NCBI RefSeq assembly: GCF_013155125.1
Contig: NZ_CP053564.1
Span: 4,905,501 to 4,969,500 of the forward strand
Source of the DNA: Pseudonocardia broussonetiae
GTDB taxonomy: Bacteria > Actinomycetota > Actinomycetes > Mycobacteriales > Pseudonocardiaceae
DNA: 64,000 nt
Reading direction: 5' to 3'
Below the pieces are notes generated by a model that saw nothing but the letters and a program-made list of their open reading frames with translations, did no database searches and was not told the DNA's origin. The position numbers and the translations under genes are program-made. Numbering within the stretch: position 1 is the stretch's first letter; every line of letters starts with the position of its first letter. Shown one piece after another: positions 4,459 to 63,406 of this stretch.

Positions 4459-5154
4459 GTGGTGGAGGTGGTGACGGTCGTGGCGGGAGTGCTCGGAGGC
4501 GTGCTCGGCGCGGGCGCCGGGGCGGTGGCCCGGGTGCTGCTCGGCCGGTTGCGGCGCGGGGCGCGGGTGCGGGCGCCGGCGTGCGAGGTCGCCGTCGCGG
4601 TGGCCTGGGCCGGTGTCGGCGCGGGGTGGGCGGCCGGGAGGTGGACCGGCACCTGGGCGGTGCTGCTGCTCGCGCTGTCCTGGTTCGCCGTGGCGGCGGG
4701 GGTGGTGGACCTGCGGCACCGCAGGCTGCCCGACGCGCTGACCCTTCCCGCCGTGCCCGTGGCGCTGCTGCTGGTGGCCCCGCTGGGCGTGGCGGCGCTC
4801 GGGCGGGCCGCGGCCGGAGCGGCGCTGGCGTGCGGGGTGCACGCCGCGGTGCACCTGGCGTCGCCGCGCTCGCTCGGGGCGGGGGACGTCAAGCTGGCCG
4901 CCTCGCTGGGGGCGGTGCTCGCCGCGGTGTCGTGGGCGGGGCTGCCGTCGGCGGCGGTGCTGGCGTCGCTGCTGACCGTCGTCACGGCGGTCCTGTCCCG
5001 GGCGGTCCCGTCCCCGGCGGTCCTCGCCCCGGCGGTCGGAACGGTCGCGGTGCCGGGTCCGCCGCCCGGTCGCCTGCGGGCGCCGGTGCCGCACGGTCCG
5101 TCGATGCTGCTGGCCACCCTGGTGGTGGTCGCCGCCGGGGCGGTGGGGTGGTGA
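4459..5154 (+). CDS. A24-type prepilin peptidase (TadV/PilD-like membrane aspartyl protease)
   Basis: Integral membrane aspartyl protease of the A24 prepilin peptidase family, 231 aa, with about six predicted helices. The two catalytic Asp motifs are visible: DLRHRRLPD early in the domain and the hallmark GAGDVKLAASLG (GxGD). It lacks the N-terminal cysteine-rich methylase domain, like the short archaeal/Tad type. It would cleave the leader of type IV/Flp pilins at the membrane, although no pilin gene is in the window. The GTG at 4459 follows a GGAGGG ribosome site; GTG 4462 is an alternative. The C-terminal third is Pro/Val-rich and variable. It sits just upstream of aroC, as in many actinobacteria. 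Confidence 0.85.
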   Translation: MVEVVTVVAGVLGGVLGAGAGAVARVLLGRLRRGARVRAPACEVAVAVAWAGVGAGWAAGRWTGTWAVLLLALSWFAVAAGVVDLRHRRLPDALTLPAVPVALLLVAPLGVAALGRAAAGAALACGVHAAVHLASPRSLGAGDVKLAASLGAVLAAVSWAGLPSAAVLASLLTVVTAVLSRAVPSPAVLAPAVGTVAVPGPPPGRLRAPVPHGPSMLLATLVVVAAGAVGW

Positions 5155-5186
5155 GGTGGGGGCCTGCCTGGTGAGAGGATGGTGAC

Positions 5187-6359
5187 GTGCTGCGTTGGAT
5201 CACTGCCGGGGAGTCCCACGGTCCTGCGCTGGTCGCCGTGCTGGAGGGCATGGTCGCCGGTGTCGGGATCACGACCAAGGAGCTGGCTGCGGAGCTCGAG
5301 CGCCGCAAGCTCGGCCACGGGCGCAGCCCGCGCATGGCGTTCGAGGCCGACGAGCTCGAGGTGATCGGCGGCCTGCGGCACGGCCTGACCCAGGGCGGCC
5401 CGGTGGCGGTCCGGATCGCCAACACCGAGTGGCCCAAGTGGGAGACCGTCATGGCGGCCGACCCGGTCGATCCCGAGCTCATCGCCGGGCGCGCCCGCAA
5501 CGCCCCGCTCACCCGGCCGCGTCCCGGCCACGCCGACCTCGCCGGCATGACCAAGTTCGGCTTCGACGACGCCCGCCCGGTCCTGGAGCGGGCGAGCGCC
5601 CGCGAGACGGCGGCGAAGGTCGTGATGGGCACCGTGGCCAAGGCGTTCCTCGCCCAGGCGCTCGGGGTGGCCGTCGTGTCGCACGTCGTCGCCATCGGTG
5701 CCGTCGACGCCCCCGACGGCGACCCGGTGCCCGGCCCGGGTGACCTGGAGCGGGTCGACGCCAGCCCGGTCCGCGCGCTCTCCCCGGAGACCTCGGCGCG
5801 GATGATGGCCGAGATCGACGCCGCCCACGAGGACGCCGACACCCTCGGTGGCGTCATCGAGGTCATCGCCTACGGCATGCCGGTGGGGGTGGGCTCCTAC
5901 GTCCAGTCCGACCGCCGCCTCGACGGCCGCCTCGCCGGCGCGCTGATGAGCATCCAGGCGATGAAGGGCGTCGAGATCGGCGACGGCTTCCGCACCGCGC
6001 ACCGCCGCGGCAGCGCCGCGCACGACGAGATGATCCCCGGCGACCCGGTGAAGCGGCTGTCCAACCGCGCCGGTGGCATCGAGGGCGGCATGACCAACGG
6101 CGAGCCGGTGCGGGTGCGCGTGGCGATGAAGCCGATCTCCACCGTGCCCCGGGCGCTGCGCACGATCGACACCGCCACCGGCGAGGAGGCCACCGCGATC
6201 CACCAGCGCTCCGACGCCTGCGCCGTGCCCCGCGCCGGGGTGGTGGCCGAGTCGATGGTGGCGCTGGTGCTGGCCGACGCCGTGCTGGAGAAGTTCGGCG
6301 GCGACTCCCTGGCCGAGACCCGCCGCAACGTCGAGGCCTACCGGTCCGCGAGCGCCTGA
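5187..6359 (+). CDS. aroC: Chorismate synthase
   Basis: Last enzyme of the shikimate pathway: an FMN-dependent anti-1,4-elimination of phosphate from EPSP giving chorismate. It is 390 aa, the normal length. Family signatures seen are the N-terminus [23 protein letters not shown], the FMN/EPSP-binding [24 protein letters not shown], and the C-terminal [15 protein letters not shown]. The GTG start at 5187 matches the family N-terminus exactly. It heads the aroC-aroK-aroB-aroQ set, but a 940-bp gap separates it from aroK, so aroK has its own promoter. Confidence 0.98.
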
Positions 6360-39531: not shown

Positions 39532-40901
39532 GCCAGCCCCGCCGTCAGCGCGCGCACGGCCGGCGAGTCCAGCTCGCGGACCCGCCCGTCGGGCGTGAGC
39601 AGCTCCATCCGCTCCAGCCACGCCGCGAACTCCGGCGCGGGGGACAGGCCCAGGACCTGCCGGGCGTAGAGCGCGTCGTGGTAGGACAGCGACTGGTAGT
39701 GCAGCATCACGTCGTCGCCGCCGGGCACGCAGATCACGAAGGAGCAACCGGCCACGCCGAGCAGCGTGAGCAGGGCGTCGGTGTCGTCGGCGTCGGCCTC
39801 GGCGTGGTTGGTGTAGCAGACGTCCACGCCCATCGGCACGCCCAGCAGCTTGCCGCAGAAGTGGTCCTCCAGGCCGGCGCGGGCGATCTGCTTGCCGTCG
39901 AAGAGGTACTCCGGGCCGATGAACCCGACGACGGTGTTGACCAGGAGCGGGTCGAACGCCCGGGCGACGGCGTAGGCGCGCACCTCCAGGGTTTGCTGGT
40001 CGACGCCGTGGTGGGCGTCCGACGACAGCGCGCTGCCCTGGCCGGTCTCGAAGTACATGCACTGGGTGCCGACGGTGCCCCGGCCCAGCGACAGCGCCGC
40101 CTCGTGGGCCTCGCGCAGCAGGTCCAGCGTCACCCCGAACCCCGTGTTGGCCGCCTGCGTCCCCGCGACGGACTGGAACACGAGGTCGACCGGGGCCCCG
40201 CGCTCCATCACCTCGATCGACGTCGTGACGTGCGCGAGCACGCAGCTCTGCGTCGGGATGTCGTAGCGCTGCCGGACGTCGTCGATGAGGCGGAGCAGGT
40301 CGACGGTGCGGTTGGGGCTGTCGGTGGCCGGGTTGATGCCGATGACGGCGTCGCCGCAGCCCAGGAGCAGGCCGTCGACGATGCTCGCGGTGACGCCGAC
40401 CGGGTCGTCGGTGGGGTGGTTGGGCTGCAGCCGGGTGGCCAGGGTGCCCGGGCGGCCCAGCGTCGTGCGGAACGCCGTGACGACCGGCGTGCGCCGCGCC
40501 ACCGCGATCAGGTCCTGCAGCCGCATCAGCTTCGAGGTGGCCGCCACCATCTCCGGCGTGAGCCCCGCGGCGAGCGTCGTCGGGTCGGTGGCGGGGTCGA
40601 GCAGGTGGTCGCGGAACTCGCCGACGGTCATCGACGCGACGGGCGCGAACGCCTGCGGGTCGTGGGAGTCGACGATCAGCCGCGTGACCTCGTCGTCCTC
40701 GTAGGGGACGACGAGCTCCTCCAGGAAGGTGGCCAGCGGCAGGTCGGCGAGCAGGCACTGCGCGGCCACCCGCTCCTGCTCCGACCGCGCGGCGACGCCC
40801 GCGAGGACGTCGCCGGAGCGGGCGGGTGTGGCCGCGGCGAGCAGCGTCGCGAGGTCGGCGAACTCGTGGCCGTGGCCGCCGGTGGTGATCCTCCTGATCA
40901 C
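39528..40901 (-). CDS. eutB: Ethanolamine ammonia-lyase large (catalytic) subunit
   Basis: 457-aa TIM-barrel subunit holding the active site. Conserved stretches seen are TFLEELVVPYEDDEVTRLI, LMRLQDLIAVARR, TLGRPGTLATRLQPNHPTDD, GINPATDSP, FQSVAGTQAANTGFG, CMYFETGQGSALSS and FCGKLLGVPMGVDVCYTNHAEAD. Length matches the family. GTG 40901 after GGAG; it overlaps the permease stop (GTGA). No microcompartment shell, EutA reactivase or aldehyde dehydrogenase gene is in the window, so acetaldehyde must be handled elsewhere. Confidence 0.97.
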   Translation of the reverse strand: MIRRITTGGHGHEFADLATLLAAATPARSGDVLAGVAARSEQERVAAQCLLADLPLATFLEELVVPYEDDEVTRLIVDSHDPQAFAPVASMTVGEFRDHLLDPATDPTTLAAGLTPEMVAATSKLMRLQDLIAVARRTPVVTAFRTTLGRPGTLATRLQPNHPTDDPVGVTASIVDGLLLGCGDAVIGINPATDSPNRTVDLLRLIDDVRQRYDIPTQSCVLAHVTTSIEVMERGAPVDLVFQSVAGTQAANTGFGVTLDLLREAHEAALSLGRGTVGTQCMYFETGQGSALSSDAHHGVDQQTLEVRAYAVARAFDPLLVNTVVGFIGPEYLFDGKQIARAGLEDHFCGKLLGVPMGVDVCYTNHAEADADDTDALLTLLGVAGCSFVICVPGGDDVMLHYQSLSYHDALYARQVLGLSPAPEFAAWLERMELLTPDGRVRELDSPAVRALTAGLA

Positions 40902-42322
40902 CGCAGCTCCTGCTCCGCCGCGGCCAGCGCGGCGAACTCCTCGTCGGGGGCGCGCGCGACCAGGTGGTGGCGGCTGTAGAGGGCGAAGTAGGCCATGAAC
41001 AGCGCGAACGCCCCGAGCGCGCAGAGCGCGGCGATGCTGTCGACGAGGAACGTCGCGATCACCGAGATGACGGCGACGACGAGGGCGAACCCGGTGGTCG
41101 CGACGCCGCCGGGCGTCCGGTACGGGCGCGGCATGTCGGGCTCGCGGCGGCGCAGCACGATGTGGCTGACCATCATCAGCACGTAGCTCAGGGCCGCCCC
41201 GAAGACCGCCATGTTGAGCAGCACCGCGCCCTGGCCGGTGAGCGAGAGCAGGAACCCGATCACGCCGGGGACGATGAGCGCCAGCGTGGGGGCCTTGCGG
41301 CCGTTGGTCAGAGACAGCACGCGGGGCAGGTAGCCCGCGCGGGAGAGCGCGAACGTCTGGCGCGAGTAGGCGTAGATGATCGAGAAGAAGCTGGCGACGA
41401 GCCCGGCGAGCCCGATGTAGTTGACGACCGTGGCCATCGTGCCCGTGCCCAGCGCCTCGACCAGCGGGTTGCCCGACTCCGACAGCGCCGACGCCCCGAT
41501 CGCGCCGGTGGCCAGGACGAGCACGGCCGCGCCGGTGACGAGCAGGACCACCATCGCGGCGATGATGCCGCGCGGCACGTCCTTGGCCGGGTCGCGCGCC
41601 TCCTCCGCGCCCAGCGGCACGCCCTCGATGGCGAGGAAGAACCAGATCGCGAACGGCACGGCGGCCCAGATGCCGAGGTAGCCGTAGGGCAGGAACGGCG
41701 ACGCGCCGGCGGCCTCGGTCGGCGGGATGTCGGTGAGGTTGGCGGCGTCGAACAGCGGCACGGCGGCGACGGCGAACACGACCAGGCCGACGAGGGCGAT
41801 CGCGGTGATCACGAACATCACCTTGAGCGCCTCGCCCGCGCCCATCAGGTGCACGCCGACGAAGATCACGTAGGCGGCCAGGTAGACCCACCAGCCGTCG
41901 GTGATGCCGAACAGGCCCAGCGACTCGACGTAGGCGCCGATGAACGTGGCGATCGCGGCCGGGGCGATCGCGTACTCGATGAGGATGGCGGTGCCCGTGG
42001 CGAACCCGCCCCACGGCCCGAGCGCGCGGCGGGCGAAGGTGTAGCCGCCGCCCGCCGTCGGCAGCGCGGAGGACAGCTCGGCCATCCCCAGCACCATCGC
42101 GGTGTACATCGCGGCGATCAGCACGCCGGCGATGAGCAGGCCGCCGAAGCCGCCCTGCCCGAGCCCGAAGTTCCAGCCGGAGTAGTCGCCGGAGATGACG
42201 TAGCTGACGCCGAGCCCGGCGAGCAGCACCCACCCGGCGGCGCCCTTCTTGAGCTGCCGCTTGGCGAGGTAGTCGTCGGCGGCGCCCGCTGTGGAGGAGG
42301 GGCTGGTCGGTGAGGTGCTCAC
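40898..42322 (-). CDS. eat: Ethanolamine permease, APC superfamily
   Basis: 474 aa with 12 predicted helices. The start YLAKRQLKKGAAGWVLLAGLGVSYVISGDYSGWNFGL is typical of Eat-type ethanolamine:proton importers; AIEGVPLGAEEARDPAKDVPRG and FSIIYAYSRQTFALSRAGYLPR are further family marks. It is the first gene of a three-gene operon with 4-bp overlaps (eat-eutB-eutC). GTG 42322 follows GGAGG at 5 nt; a TACCGT hexamer 28 nt upstream of the leader (42362-42357, minus) is a possible -10 box. No regulator gene is adjacent. Confidence 0.94.
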   Translation of the reverse strand: MSTSPTSPSSTAGAADDYLAKRQLKKGAAGWVLLAGLGVSYVISGDYSGWNFGLGQGGFGGLLIAGVLIAAMYTAMVLGMAELSSALPTAGGGYTFARRALGPWGGFATGTAILIEYAIAPAAIATFIGAYVESLGLFGITDGWWVYLAAYVIFVGVHLMGAGEALKVMFVITAIALVGLVVFAVAAVPLFDAANLTDIPPTEAAGASPFLPYGYLGIWAAVPFAIWFFLAIEGVPLGAEEARDPAKDVPRGIIAAMVVLLVTGAAVLVLATGAIGASALSESGNPLVEALGTGTMATVVNYIGLAGLVASFFSIIYAYSRQTFALSRAGYLPRVLSLTNGRKAPTLALIVPGVIGFLLSLTGQGAVLLNMAVFGAALSYVLMMVSHIVLRRREPDMPRPYRTPGGVATTGFALVVAVISVIATFLVDSIAALCALGAFALFMAYFALYSRHHLVARAPDEEFAALAAAEQELR

Positions 42323-42621: not shown

Positions 42622-42689
42622 GGTGATCGTCGGGAGTGCACCGTCAGGGTCGTCGGCGCGGCCGTGGTGTCACACTCCCGACGATCACC
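42622..42689. repeat. Element A, copy 1 (68-bp palindromic repeat)
   Basis: Arms GGTGATCGTCGGGAGTG and CACTCCCGACGATCACC are a perfect 17-bp inverted repeat around a 34-nt centre that contains GGTCGTCGGCG and CCGTGGTGTCA. Followed after 16 nt by element B copy 1. Confidence 0.9.
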
Positions 42690-42705
42690 GGCTGCTCGGG
42701 GGTGG

Positions 42706-42768
42706 ATGATCACCAGTTGGGCGCGTTCGGGCCACATGCGGCCGGAAGTGCGCCGAGGTTGTGATCAT
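42706..42768. repeat. Element B, copy 1 (63 bp)
   Basis: Ends ATGATCAC and GTGATCAT are inverted. Inner stem of the GGCGC/GCGCC class, shared with copy 3. The centre contains GGGCCACATGCGGCCGG. Confidence 0.85.
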
Positions 42769-42840
42769 GGCCGAGGTTCGGGGCCGGCGGTCGGGGGTCG
42801 GCGGCCGGGGGCGGAGCTGGCACCGCTCGGCGGGATCGGG

Positions 42841-42867
42841 CGTGGCGCCACACTCCTGGTCATCACA
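42841..42867. repeat. Element A, copy 2 (right-hand remnant)
   Basis: Only the right half of A survives (CACACTCCTGGTCATCACA region), again 16 nt before a B element. The left arm is missing, and the junction lies in GTGGCG, where intact copies have a GTGG both before and inside A. This suggests deletion between short repeats. Confidence 0.65.
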
Positions 42868-42883
42868 GGCCCGCTGATCGTTC

Positions 42884-42948
42884 ATGATCACCGTCTGGGC
42901 AGGAGAACAGCAACATCCGCTCGGAAACCCTGCCGAGATGGTGATCAT
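42884..42948. repeat. Element B, copy 2 (65 bp)
   Basis: Ends ATGATCAC/GTGATCAT. Arms extend to about 20 bp with few mismatches through GTCTGGGCAGG and CCTGCCGAGAT; inner stem class GGCAGG/CCTGCC, shared with copy 4. Confidence 0.9.
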
Positions 42949-43017
42949 GGGCCGGCGGTGATCCGATGCGGCCCGGCCCGGCCTGCCTCGCCTCTCTCCG
43001 CCCGGCGGGTCGGGCGC

Positions 43018-43085
43018 GGTGATCGTCGGGAGTGTGCGGTCATGGTCGTCGGTGAGACCGTGGTGTCGCACTCCCGGCGATCACA
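43018..43085. repeat. Element A, copy 3 (68 bp)
   Basis: Left arm GGTGATCGTCGGGAGTG identical to copy 1; right arm CACTCCCGGCGATCACA. The inner CGGTC/GACCG can extend the stem. Preceded by the conserved CCCGGCGGGTCGGGCGC spacer end and followed after 16 nt by B copy 3. Confidence 0.9.
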
Positions 43086-43101
43086 CCGTGGTTGCTCGTC
43101 C

Positions 43102-43165
43102 ATGATCACCGTTTCGGCGCGTTGTCGGCCGGATGTGGCCGCATGTGCGCCGAGGTGGTGATCAT
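43102..43165. repeat. Element B, copy 3 (64 bp)
   Basis: Ends ATGATCAC/GTGATCAT; inner stem TCGGCGC/GCGCCGA class, like copy 1. Confidence 0.9.
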
Positions 43166-43252
43166 GGTCGGTGGTCGGGGGGGTGATCGCCGAGGGTTCG
43201 AGGCTGGCGGCTGAGTGACCGGGGGCCTGCGCCGCCCGGCGGGGTCGGGCGT

Positions 43253-43320
43253 GGTGATCGTCGGGAGTGTGTCGTGACGGTCGTCGGCGGGACCGTGGCG
43301 TCACATTTCCGGTGATCACA
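43253..43320. repeat. Element A, copy 4 (68 bp)
   Basis: Left arm identical to copies 1 and 3; right arm diverged (CACATTTCCGGTGATCACA). Inner ACGGTC/GACCGT pairing kept. Followed after 16 nt by B copy 4. Confidence 0.85.
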
Positions 43321-43336
43321 CGACCGCTGCTCGTCC

Positions 43337-43401
43337 AAGATCACCGTCTGGGCAGGAGAGCAGCCACATACGGCCGGAAAACCTGCCGAGACGGTGATCA
43401 T
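43337..43401. repeat. Element B, copy 4 (65 bp)
   Basis: Left end AAGATCAC with one change, right end GTGATCAT; inner stem GGGCAGG/CCTGCC as in copy 2, with which it is about 85% identical by eye. Confidence 0.88.
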
Positions 43402-43425
43402 GGGGCCGCCGGACACCCAGTAAAA

Positions 43426-43670: not shown

Positions 43671-45713
43671 ATGACCACCGCCCGTCCCTCCACCCCGGCC
43701 AAGGGGGAGTGGCGTCCGGCCGCGGACCGGCCGGTGGCGCGGGTGGCGGTGGACGTGCCGCTGGCCCACCTGGACCGGGTGTTCGACTACCGCGTCCCCG
43801 AGCAGTTCGACGCCGACGCGCGGCCTGGGGTGCGGGTGCGTGTGCGGTTCGCGGGGCGGCTGGTCGACGGGTTCCTGCTGGAGCGGGTGGCCGACTCCGA
43901 GCACCGGCTGGCGTGGGTGGAGAAGGTGGTCTCGCCTGAGCCCGCGCTCACCCCGGAGGTGGCGGCGCTGTGCCGCACGGTGGCCGACCGCTACGCCGGG
44001 GTGTTCGCCGACGTCGTCCGCCTCGCCGTCCCGCCCCGCCACGCGCGCGTCGAGAAGGAGGTGCGCGAGCCCGGGCCGGTCCCGCAGCCGGCGGCGCCCG
44101 ACCCGGCCGGGTGGGCCCGCTACCGGCACGGCGCCGCCCTGCTCGACGCGCTGGCCGGCGGGCGGGCGGCGCACGCGGTGTGGCAGGCGCTGCCGGGGGA
44201 GTCGTGGGTGGCGCGGCTGGCCGAGGCGGCCGCGGCCACCGCGTCGGCCGGGCGGGGGGCGCTGCTGGTGGTGCCCGACCAGCGCGACGTCGACCTCCTG
44301 CACGCCGCCCTCGTCGAGCGCCTCGGGGCCGACGGGGTCGTCGCGCTCACCGCCGAGCTCGGGCCGGCCGAGCGCTACCGGCGCTGGCTGACCGTGCGGC
44401 GGGGGCACGTGCGGGTCGTCGTCGGCACCCGCTCGGCGGCGTTCGCGCCGATCGCCGAGCCCGGCCTGCTCGCCGTCTGGGACGACGGCGACGACCTGCA
44501 CGCCGAGCCCCGCGCGCCCTACCCCCACGTCCGCGACGTCCTCGTGGTGCGCGCGCACGCGGCCGGCGCGGCGCTGTTGGTCGCCGGCTTCGCCCGCACG
44601 GCCGAGGCCCAGCTGCTGGTGGAGACGGGGTGGGCGCGGGAGGTCGTCGCCGAGCGCGGGGTGGTCCGCGACGTCATGCCGCGCGTGGTCGCGCTGTCCG
44701 AGGGCGACGGCGCCGTGCTCGCCCGCGACCCCGACGCCCGCGCCGCGCGCCTGCCCCACATCGCCTTCGACGCCGCCCGCGCCGCGCTGGCCGCCGACCG
44801 GCCGGTGCTCGTGCAGGTCCCGCGCTCGGGCTACGTGCCGTGGGTGTCGTGCGGGCAGTGCCGGGAGACCGCGCGCTGCCGGCACTGCGCCGGGCCGCTC
44901 GGCCTGCGCCGGAGCGCAGGTCCCGACACCGCCGACCCGCCCGCCCTCCCGCACTGCCGCTGGTGCGGGCGCCCCGACCCGGCGTTCCGCTGCCCCAACT
45001 GCGGCTCGCGGCGGCTGCGCGCGGGCGTCGTCGGGGCCGGGCGCACCGCCGAGGAGCTGGGCCGGGCGTTCCCCGGCGTCACCGTGCGGGCGTCGGGCGG
45101 CGGCGCGCCCGTGCTGGCCGGCGTGCCCGCGGGCCCGGGGCTCGTCGTCGCCACGCCGGGGGCCGAGCCGCCCGCCGAGGGCGGCTACGGCGCCGCCCTG
45201 CTGCTCGACGGCTGGGCGATGCTGTCGCGGCCGGACCTGCGCGTGGCCGAGGAGACGCTGCGCCGCTGGCTGGCCGCGGCGGCGCTGGTCGTGCCGCACA
45301 CCGCGGGCGGGCGGGTCGTCATCACCGCCGACGCCGGGCTGCCCGTCGTGCAGGACCTCGTGCGCTGGGACCCGGCGCACCACGCCGCCGCCGAGCTCGC
45401 CGCCCGCGCCGAGGTCGGGTTCCCGCCCGCCGTGCGGATGGCGGCGGTGGAGGGCGTGCCGGTGGCGGTGGGCGAGGTCGTCGACGACGTGTGCGCCGCG
45501 CTGGACGGCGTCGAGGTGCTGGGGCCGGTCGAGATCGAGCCCTCCCGGGACGGCACCGGCGACGGCGTGGAGCGCGAGCGGGCCCTGCTCCGCGTCCCGC
45601 GCGCGCAGGGCCGCGCGCTGGCCGCCGCGCTGCACGCCGCCCAGGGCGCCCGCGCCGCGCGCAAGGCGCCCGACCCGGTGCGCGTGCGGCTGGATCCCGT
45701 CGCGATCGAGTGA
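43671..45713 (+). CDS. priA: Primosomal protein N' (PriA), helicase-degenerate actinobacterial form
   Basis: 680 aa. PriA restarts stalled forks by loading DnaB. The N-terminal 3'-DNA-binding domain (DVPLAHLDRVFDYRVPEQFD) and the zinc-binding region are intact (CGQCRETARCRHCAG, CRWCG, CPNCGSRRL). The Walker A motif GxxGxGKT of true PriA is absent: the region reads WVARLAEAAAATASAGRGALLVVPDQ, and the DEAH box is replaced by WDDGDD. It therefore cannot be an active ATP-dependent helicase, a known trait of actinobacterial PriA-like proteins. The ATG at 43671 has a CACGAT hexamer 6 nt upstream, possibly a leaderless -10. Confidence 0.93.
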   Translation: MTTARPSTPAKGEWRPAADRPVARVAVDVPLAHLDRVFDYRVPEQFDADARPGVRVRVRFAGRLVDGFLLERVADSEHRLAWVEKVVSPEPALTPEVAALCRTVADRYAGVFADVVRLAVPPRHARVEKEVREPGPVPQPAAPDPAGWARYRHGAALLDALAGGRAAHAVWQALPGESWVARLAEAAAATASAGRGALLVVPDQRDVDLLHAALVERLGADGVVALTAELGPAERYRRWLTVRRGHVRVVVGTRSAAFAPIAEPGLLAVWDDGDDLHAEPRAPYPHVRDVLVVRAHAAGAALLVAGFARTAEAQLLVETGWAREVVAERGVVRDVMPRVVALSEGDGAVLARDPDARAARLPHIAFDAARAALAADRPVLVQVPRSGYVPWVSCGQCRETARCRHCAGPLGLRRSAGPDTADPPALPHCRWCGRPDPAFRCPNCGSRRLRAGVVGAGRTAEELGRAFPGVTVRASGGGAPVLAGVPAGPGLVVATPGAEPPAEGGYGAALLLDGWAMLSRPDLRVAEETLRRWLAAAALVVPHTAGGRVVITADAGLPVVQDLVRWDPAHHAAAELAARAEVGFPPAVRMAAVEGVPVAVGEVVDDVCAALDGVEVLGPVEIEPSRDGTGDGVERERALLRVPRAQGRALAAALHAAQGARAARKAPDPVRVRLDPVAIE

Positions 45714-62948: not shown

Positions 62949-63016
62949 CAAGATCGTCAGGATCGCGTCGCCAGGGTCGCGGGAGGGACGCTGGGGGTGC
63001 ACTCCCGGTGATCACA
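62949..63016. repeat. Element A, copy 5 (68 bp, after whiA)
   Basis: Starts AAGATCGTCAGGATC and ends CACTCCCGGTGATCACA, aligned over exactly 68 bp with copy 3. The right arm is nearly intact, the left arm diverged. No B element is recognised at the usual 16-nt distance. Confidence 0.7.
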
Positions 63017-63256
63017 CCGCCGTCGCCGCCGTCCGCACACCACGGTCGTCGCGGCAGCCGTCCGGTGCGGCCGGTGGCGATCACGCGGGGGCTCGCGCAC
63101 CCCGTGGCGTCCTGCGCACGGCCGGACGGTGCGCACACCTCCGGCGGGTGCGCGTCTCGGGGACCTCGTCGGACGCGCTGCGCAGTTCGGGGGAGCGGGC
63201 CGGTGCTGCGGCAGCCCGAGGCCGGCCCGCGGCCCGGCCACGTCCCACTCCCGCTC

Positions 63257-63324
63257 GGTGATCGCCGGGACCGTGACACCGCGGACGTCCCGACGACCCC
63301 GACGCCAGGTCTCGACGATCACCC
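63257..63324. repeat. Element A, copy 6 (68 bp, after whiA)
   Basis: Left arm GGTGATCGCCGGGAC pairs with right arm GTCTCGACGATCACC (two mismatches in 15). Exactly 68 bp when aligned on the GATC of both ends. Confidence 0.7.
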
Positions 63325-63338
63325 GGGGTCGAGCTGTC

Positions 63339-63406
63339 GACGATCCGCAGGACCGCACGGCCACGGTCGCGGGAGGGGCACTGGTGGCGCGATCCCGGTG
63401 ATTACC
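63339..63406. repeat. Element A, copy 7 (68 bp, after whiA)
   Basis: Starts 15 nt after copy 6. Similar to copy 5 through GGTCGCGGGAGGG and CCCGGTGATTACC. Again 68 bp on the same alignment. Confidence 0.65.

Follow-up and report, generated by a model that had tools for sequence, protein, structure and literature searches.

Array of palindromes between eat and priA

The window analysed here, a stretch of 64,000 nucleotides (nt) at positions 4,905,501–4,969,500 of the 7.18-Mb chromosome of Pseudonocardia broussonetiae, harbors an array of two kinds of palindromic elements, A and B, in the gap between the genes eat and priA. The array is flanked by a minus-strand frame at 40898–42322 (named eat in a preliminary description made from the sequence) and a plus-strand frame at 43671–45713 (priA), so that the flanking genes are divergent. 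Element A is an imperfect palindrome of 66 bp with the ends GTGATC..GATCAC, and element B is 66–67 bp long with ends of the ATGATCACC..GGTGATCAT type. Four A-B units follow each other on the plus strand. The nearly symmetric A1 (42623–42688; sequence reading, gapless family alignment and folding) is followed by B1 (42705–42770; sequence reading). A2 is a right-hand remnant lacking the left arm (42831–42866, start approximate; sequence reading and alignment), and B2 (42883–42949) was again located by sequence reading. A3 (43019–43084), B3 (43101–43166), A4 (43254–43319) and B4 (43336–43402) were located by sequence reading and folding, both A copies being 66 bp long. In each of the four units, including the damaged one, A ends with ..GATCAC (..CATCAC in the A2 remnant), B begins with NATGATC or CAAGATC, and 16 nt lie between them. 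The preliminary description had reported this fourfold A-16-B arrangement, which is confirmed here by reading and alignment; its length of 68 bp for A has to be corrected, as 70 copies align without gaps over 66 columns.

As single-stranded DNA, the plus strand of A1, A3, A4, B3 and B4 folds with z-scores of −3.5 to −8.3 against dinucleotide shuffles, and the minus strand with −6.1 (A1), −3.5 (A3) and −2.1 (A4). The closest B pairs in the alignment are B1/B3 and B2/B4, and for this reason the four units probably arose by duplication of a block of two, followed by decay, a history which the preliminary description had doubted. The window contains no Rfam match at gathering scores. The array itself has no match in the plasmid and phage collections searched, and an origin from either was rejected on this basis. 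It was likewise rejected as a conserved feature upstream of priA: nothing better than E 0.007 was found at 80 other actinobacterial priA loci (10 from Pseudonocardia; 4 of the 80 with less than 1 kb upstream), taken irrespective of whether the upstream gene is the same.

The repeat family in the chromosome

Profile searches covered 81 regions of the chromosome (1.05 Mb), mostly picked for holding hits. They contain 301 A palindromes in 61 regions (hereafter clusters), 16 B and 17 copies of a third type, C, without overlap to A, all of about 66 bp; sixteen arbitrary 20-kb regions contain no A copy. Genome-wide, the pattern GTGATC-N40-70-GATCAC has 231 forward matches versus none for the backwards-read control. 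The unbiased test of length is a scan for GATC..GATC pairs spanning 54–84 bp with paired arms, which also revealed type C: the span is exactly 66 bp in 91 of 116 pairs (element lengths elsewhere were restricted to 65–67 bp by snapping). The possibility, raised in advance, that no further copies exist has thereby fallen away.

The 70 aligned A copies share invariant positions that are arranged symmetrically. The first set of 37 clusters is intergenic by gene calls from a simple codon model made for the analysis; one cluster reaches 9 bp into a called gene and another holds an insertion-sequence gene. Their flanking genes are tandem in 20 cases, convergent in 13 and divergent in 4. Among the 16 B copies, nine (at five loci) are adjoined by A or a damaged A, always at 15–16 nt, and seven have no adjacent A. 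At 3.155 Mb the likeness to the window units spans from the A edge to the end of B, with weak likeness for about 35 nt beyond in one comparison, and at 0.684 Mb it takes in the spacer upstream and one more B remnant (the block comparison at these loci did not reach the fourth unit). Judged from these limits of likeness, copying seems to have involved single units as well as larger blocks. This recurrence agrees with the earlier proposal that the two elements function or move jointly.

The window holds another array of this repeat family on the minus strand near its right end, between coding regions (62950–63406). It consists of A at 62950–63015, a C-type element at about 63019–63084, A at 63258–63323 and A at about 63340–63406.

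Two copies of an IS481-family insertion sequence with the ends TGTTCTGACC..GGTCAGAACA (L091:3715-4875, plus strand; L118:7256-6099, minus strand) sit in the centre of two different A palindromes in opposite orientations, with duplications of about 26–28 bp covering the loop of the module. Both of the two copies seen are thus inside A, in a sample enriched for A arrays, and this insertion sequence may target A palindromes.

Spacing of neighbouring palindromes

Neighbouring A, B and C elements are separated by a small set of distances. Out of 167 gaps shorter than 30 nt, 87 are 5–8 nt long, 53 are 14–18, 17 are 25–28 and 10 fall elsewhere; these classes occur in 34, 18, 10 and 7 of 55 clusters, respectively. 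The best-fitting period is 10.4 bp in a test that takes the clusters as independent, though some linkers are common by descent and almost half of the values belong to the 6-nt mode. Linkers of equal length differ widely in sequence. A-16-B is one helically phased doublet among many and belongs to the middle gap class; it is not quite the special geometry it had been taken for, as A-A and A-B neighbours use common quantised gaps of about 6, 16 and 27 nt. In A-A doublets of the three gap classes both members have the same polarity in 90 of the 94 with clear polarity (38 more are too weak to call), i.e. they are mostly arranged head to tail.

Strand polarity

The polarity of A follows from its non-Watson-Crick pairs, which are mostly G.T and lie on one strand. 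In a cross-validation, A copies oriented by the odd pairs predict the even pairs by 737:172, or 56 versus 3 clusters. Since dnaA is located at 1.606 Mb, the terminus is expected half a chromosome away, near 5.195 Mb. With these landmarks the G.T strand is the leading-strand sequence in 44 of 59 clusters (p 0.0002), or in 42 of 61 by model score (p 0.004). Polarity is independent of the direction of the neighbouring genes in the 37 clusters.

The leading-oriented GC skew is +0.16 in the elements, +0.008 in the spacers within 400 bp and +0.021 in other intergenic DNA. The spacers are nearly without GC skew, and therefore background composition of the replication strands was rejected as the sole cause of polarity. 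It may contribute as a minor factor: spacer TA skew amounts to +0.078 and is correlated with polarity (rho 0.40; for GC skew rho 0.24, p 0.06). The bias indirectly suggests hairpins on the lagging-strand template, which would yield such a preference.

Repeats in related species

A covariance model of A matches 28 of 35 other members of the genus, seven being without a hit; outside the genus, 6 of 24 genomes have one or two weak matches each. These counts are lower bounds (at most 87 candidates were scored per genome), and one palindrome can count on both strands. In 20 regions taken from the hits in relatives, the cognate palindromes are mostly 61–64 bp as matched and have TGATC-like ends, with interiors that differ by species. 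They form close doublets or arrays in several relatives (regions from genomes G006, G018, G025 and G031) and are solitary in others. No description of such intergenic palindromic repeats in Pseudonocardia was found among the titles listed in searches of open-access papers, a coverage that leaves out most preprints and subscription papers.

Nuclease genes bordered by the palindromes

A TnpA/REP (Y1, PF01797) transposase, suggested earlier as the partner of the repeats, has no match in the P. broussonetiae genome (5 of 14 control genomes were positive). It is rare in the genus, being found in 5 of 60 genomes and in 1 of the 12 same-genus genomes with at least 17 covariance-model hits, and was rejected. 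The genes enclosed by the modules led instead to two DUF559 (PF04480) proteins, one of them with an AbiEi_4 domain, and a DUF559/AbiEi nuclease gene is the likely partner. The linked protein of about 290 aa comprises an AbiEi-like N-terminal half and a half resembling Vsr/EDxHD nucleases (DUF559); the Vsr/EDxHD-like catalytic domain is present and its nuclease residues are conserved.

Four of the seven PF04480 loci in the genome are bordered by 64–67-bp GATC palindromes, three of them on both sides. The locus at 3.52 Mb (3,519,747 to 3,520,808) has B on both sides, that at 0.13 Mb has A on both sides, that at 2.71 Mb has C upstream only, and that at 7.02 Mb is enclosed by further palindrome types. 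The 3.52-Mb protein is 291 aa long and has homologues in Pseudonocardia, one of them 93% identical; the nearest relatives of the PriA encoded in the window are from the same genus. The TGA stop codon belongs to the TGATC end of the downstream palindrome in three of these four loci. No AbiEii (DUF1814) was found among the scanned neighbours at 3.52 and 7.02 Mb, which are an unmatched 154-aa protein, a DUF349 protein, a fatty acid desaturase and an acyltransferase. One nearby gene each was scanned at 0.13 Mb (Suc_Fer-like) and at 2.71 Mb (nitroreductase/F420 ligase). DUF559 proteins occur in 1 and 4 plasmid records. Two further GATC palindromes of another type lie inside an A cluster at 671.0–671.5 kb (L064, about 4800–5300), and one of them weakly resembles a palindrome flanking the 7.02-Mb gene.

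DUF559 loci across the order

The 3.52-Mb protein has a homologue (E 1e-10) in 112 of 200 sampled genomes of the order, which we take to be Mycobacteriales in GTDB. Palindromes were scored at 74 DUF559 loci, five from P. broussonetiae and 69 from the stronger homologue matches; the set is non-random and some loci are orthologous. A long palindrome is found just upstream of the gene in 47 loci, at its stop in 37, at both ends in 27 and at either in 57, compared with 14 upstream, 9 at the stop and 2 at both ends in the priA control (79 of 80 loci). The 47 include a non-GATC palindrome at the 0.669-Mb locus of P. broussonetiae (L263), and in L259 the scored downstream palindrome differs from the A copy at the stop. 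Of the 37 downstream palindromes, 18 contain the stop codon and another 7 are no more than 4 nt away from it (25 of 37). Start codons were assigned so as to come nearest to a 292-aa product, and the centre of the upstream palindrome precedes the assigned start by about 60–130 nt in many loci. In the other genomes the scored cores are about 46–57 bp long (for example L324, L302, L286 and L291), 46 bp being the shortest that the scan could see.

Where both ends carry a palindrome, the two fall into one sequence family at 23 of 27 loci, which together represent 20 families; when each upstream palindrome is compared with the set of 83, its own downstream partner is the best match at 21 of the 27. 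Long palindromes are thus very probably linked by position to DUF559/AbiEi nuclease genes. Searches of open-access papers, within the coverage given above, found no report tying DUF559 to palindromic repeats; judged by its title, one paper retrieved deals with a Vsr-like protein of Caulobacter. One member of the genus (G074; loci L266, L295 and L310) has seven DUF559 protein matches, and in L295 near-identical palindromes occupy both ends.

One orthologous site

The site between the gene of the 154-aa protein and the DUF349 gene was compared in 30 loci of the genus. The nuclease gene is present in 12 of them (decayed in L365, partial in L375 and split in L383) and absent in 16, with two loci left unassigned. 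Sites without the gene retain one GATC-ended palindrome in L374, L384 and L363 and at least one in L376, and L357 has an intact and a truncated B-like palindrome around a gene fragment of 41 nt (83% identical). The interval is only 28–66 bp long in L361, L362, L370, L378, L379 and L382. Direction of change left aside, the states of the site look like those expected of an element and its leftovers. The 154-aa protein (L078:4450-4914, plus strand) has no Pfam match at E 0.001; its gene lies between miaB and the DUF559 element and has the same DUF349 gene as its neighbour in the majority of the 30 loci.

Interpretation

Most probably (we would put it at about 60%), the array in the window represents clustered, non-autonomous copies from a REPtron-like mobile system whose driving protein resembles a homing endonuclease. 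From the observed family, phasing, polarity, bracketing and conserved nuclease residues we infer binding, cutting and movement as follows. The autonomous form would measure about 1.05 kb and consist of a palindrome and the gene of the ~290-aa protein, followed at or across the stop codon by another palindrome, which usually shares the family of the first. Every gene would have a palindrome family of its own, i.e. B for the 3.52-Mb gene, A for that at 0.13 Mb, C, upstream, for that at 2.71 Mb and the further types for that at 7.02 Mb. The protein may bind as a dimer to the two-fold-symmetric palindrome of about 60 bp and cut or nick it, repair then copying palindrome units elsewhere. In-phase doublets with gaps of 6, 16 or 27 nt, such as A-16-B, could be the smallest unit handled, with two dimers on one face of the helix, and the hairpins would form on the lagging-strand template. 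The wider claim, which we consider about as likely true as false, is that these palindromes belong to a new class of mobile element without an HUH transposase: a fused AbiEi-winged-helix/EDxHD nuclease that would sit as a dimer on long symmetric palindromes, act on hairpins of the lagging-strand template, spread itself and above all its palindromes, and leave phased doublets and arrays behind.

Several observations weigh against such a system. No movement was seen, and no target-site duplication was identified where the edges were compared by eye (one locus, 3.155 Mb). As the priA control demonstrates, a palindrome at the end of a gene is in general no rarity, and 17 of the 74 DUF559 loci have none of this kind at either end. 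In the P. broussonetiae genome GATC palindromes are missing from three of seven PF04480 loci, including a homologue with 49% identity, and the sample contains no dispersed copies of the types around the 7.02-Mb gene, save for the one weak match at 0.671 Mb. Two DUF559 loci of the distant genome G091 have end palindromes of which a 400-kb sample contains no dispersed copy, and therefore spreading is not general. The phasing is imperfect: C accounts for eight of the ten gap misfits, 14 of its 22 short gaps to A being in phase and 8 out of phase, and gaps of 33–34 and 43–44 nt are off phase too. Polarity is opposite to the leading strand in 15 of 59 clusters. At the miaB-DUF349 site L362, L364, L367, L370 and L372, which lack the gene, carry palindromes of another kind that have no GATC ends and are perhaps terminators, and since the gene is common to many species there, it may be an old, often lost resident and not a recent insertion.

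Other functions of the palindromes were considered. AbiEi and Rv2827c are described to autoregulate by binding inverted repeats in their own promoters (PMC7319586); the N-terminal half of the present protein is AbiEi-like and the upstream palindrome commonly lies at the distance from the start given above, so it might repress its own gene there, the dispersed copies being a regulon or decoys without any mobility. Operators would leave unexplained the 3' palindrome (of the same family and often across the stop codon), the hundreds of copies in arrays with 13 of 37 clusters between convergent genes, the lone copies persisting at sites without the gene and the conserved nuclease residues, and we find this explanation improbable. 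A protein-binding array serving the host in nucleoid structure, supercoiling or replication, to which the nuclease would be only secondarily associated, is less probable still. The ~10.4-bp phasing, the symmetric invariant positions, the intergenic placement of the 37 clusters and the leading-strand bias would suit it, whereas the patchy copy number in the genus, the lack of a hit better than E 0.007 at the 80 other priA loci and the inner sequences differing by species would not.

Structured RNA or terminators in the form of tandem hairpins agree with the one-stranded G.T pairs and with the better folding of the same strand in A3 and A4. However, strand polarity that is independent of neighbouring genes, together with the absence of an Rfam match in the window, weighs against a cis-acting RNA element; the window array lies between divergent genes, and gaps of 6, 16 and 27 nt would fit the DNA helix rather than RNA. 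This option of the preliminary description has slightly lower odds than a host array. Its idea of a REP-like mobile element comes closest to the reading preferred here. Ordinary repetitive extragenic palindromes (REPs) or miniature inverted-repeat transposable elements, spread by a Y1 or DDE transposase since lost or encoded elsewhere, are nevertheless the least credible of these explanations: intergenic doublets in clusters are known from REPINs (PMC3116915), but the scarcity of genes for Y1, the transposase class covered by the search described above, and the head-to-tail orientation of the doublets, which are not inverted, argue against them.

REP-like palindromes are an old puzzle, and with the mobile system proposed here a repeat family in a genome devoid of Y1 would gain a candidate enzyme from a different class, the positional link extending over 20 distinct palindrome families of one order. 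The origin of the repeats becomes testable in soil bacteria, the 10.4-bp phasing and the leading-strand bias offer handles on the mechanism, and a function is suggested for a common unnamed protein family. If the proposal is true, the autonomous form is common across the order and has been overlooked as a 'DUF559 domain-containing protein'.

Comparison with known systems

The family shares with REPs, bacterial interspersed mosaic elements and REPINs, together with their REP-associated tyrosine transposases (RAYTs), the occurrence of palindromes between genes, numbering tens to hundreds and grouped into doublets and clusters, with several types per genome, and also a cognate gene flanked by them; it is the enzyme class that differs. 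In the arrangement described for REPtrons and REPINs, a DNA-processing gene is flanked by its own palindrome type and doublets are scattered between genes (PMC6006769, PMC3116915). The same tie between a palindrome type and the gene flanked by it is observed here, and the strand bias is of a kind to be expected from lagging-strand chemistry. Unlike in RAYT systems, the Y1/HUH enzyme is absent and the linked protein is an AbiEi-DUF559 (Vsr/EDxHD-like) nuclease. The GTAG/GTGG foot of REPs is found in none of the 70 aligned A copies, most of which begin with GTGATCG; doublets run head to tail and their gaps are helically phased, in contrast to the inverted doublets of REPINs; and the modules are about 50–67 bp long, with a downstream palindrome that often overlaps the stop codon.

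The CGTC-tagged REPs are reported to lack a dedicated transposase (Di Nocera 2013, PMC3733652), as the present palindromes lack a known one. Theirs are stems of 8–9 bp with loops of 4–5 nt from Proteobacteria and four other phyla, according to the same source, whereas the modules here have 66 bp; its main text does not mention the terms actinobacter, mycobacter, pseudonocardia or DUF. The CGTC tag is unpaired in those REPs; in A, CGTC at columns 6–9 lies within the arm, with columns 6, 7 and 9 paired.

With the AbiE type IV toxin-antitoxin system the linked protein has in common the AbiEi fold of its N-terminal half, and AbiEi binds inverted repeats; unlike in AbiE, this half is fused to a nuclease and there is no AbiEii among the scanned neighbour genes. 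The nuclease half resembles the EDxHD homing endonuclease I-Bth0305I in domain fold and active-site pattern. I-Bth0305I reportedly acts as a dimer on a target of nearly 60 bp, and by analogy the palindrome length of about 60 bp is suggestive of such a target. Homing endonucleases typically reside inside their own cut target, often in introns (PMC3943268), whereas the DUF559 gene stands between two palindromes in intergenic DNA, both at the loci of P. broussonetiae and at the site compared in relatives. Taken together, the enzyme, the foot and the doublet orientation of REPs are not those found here; the arrangement is REPtron-like.
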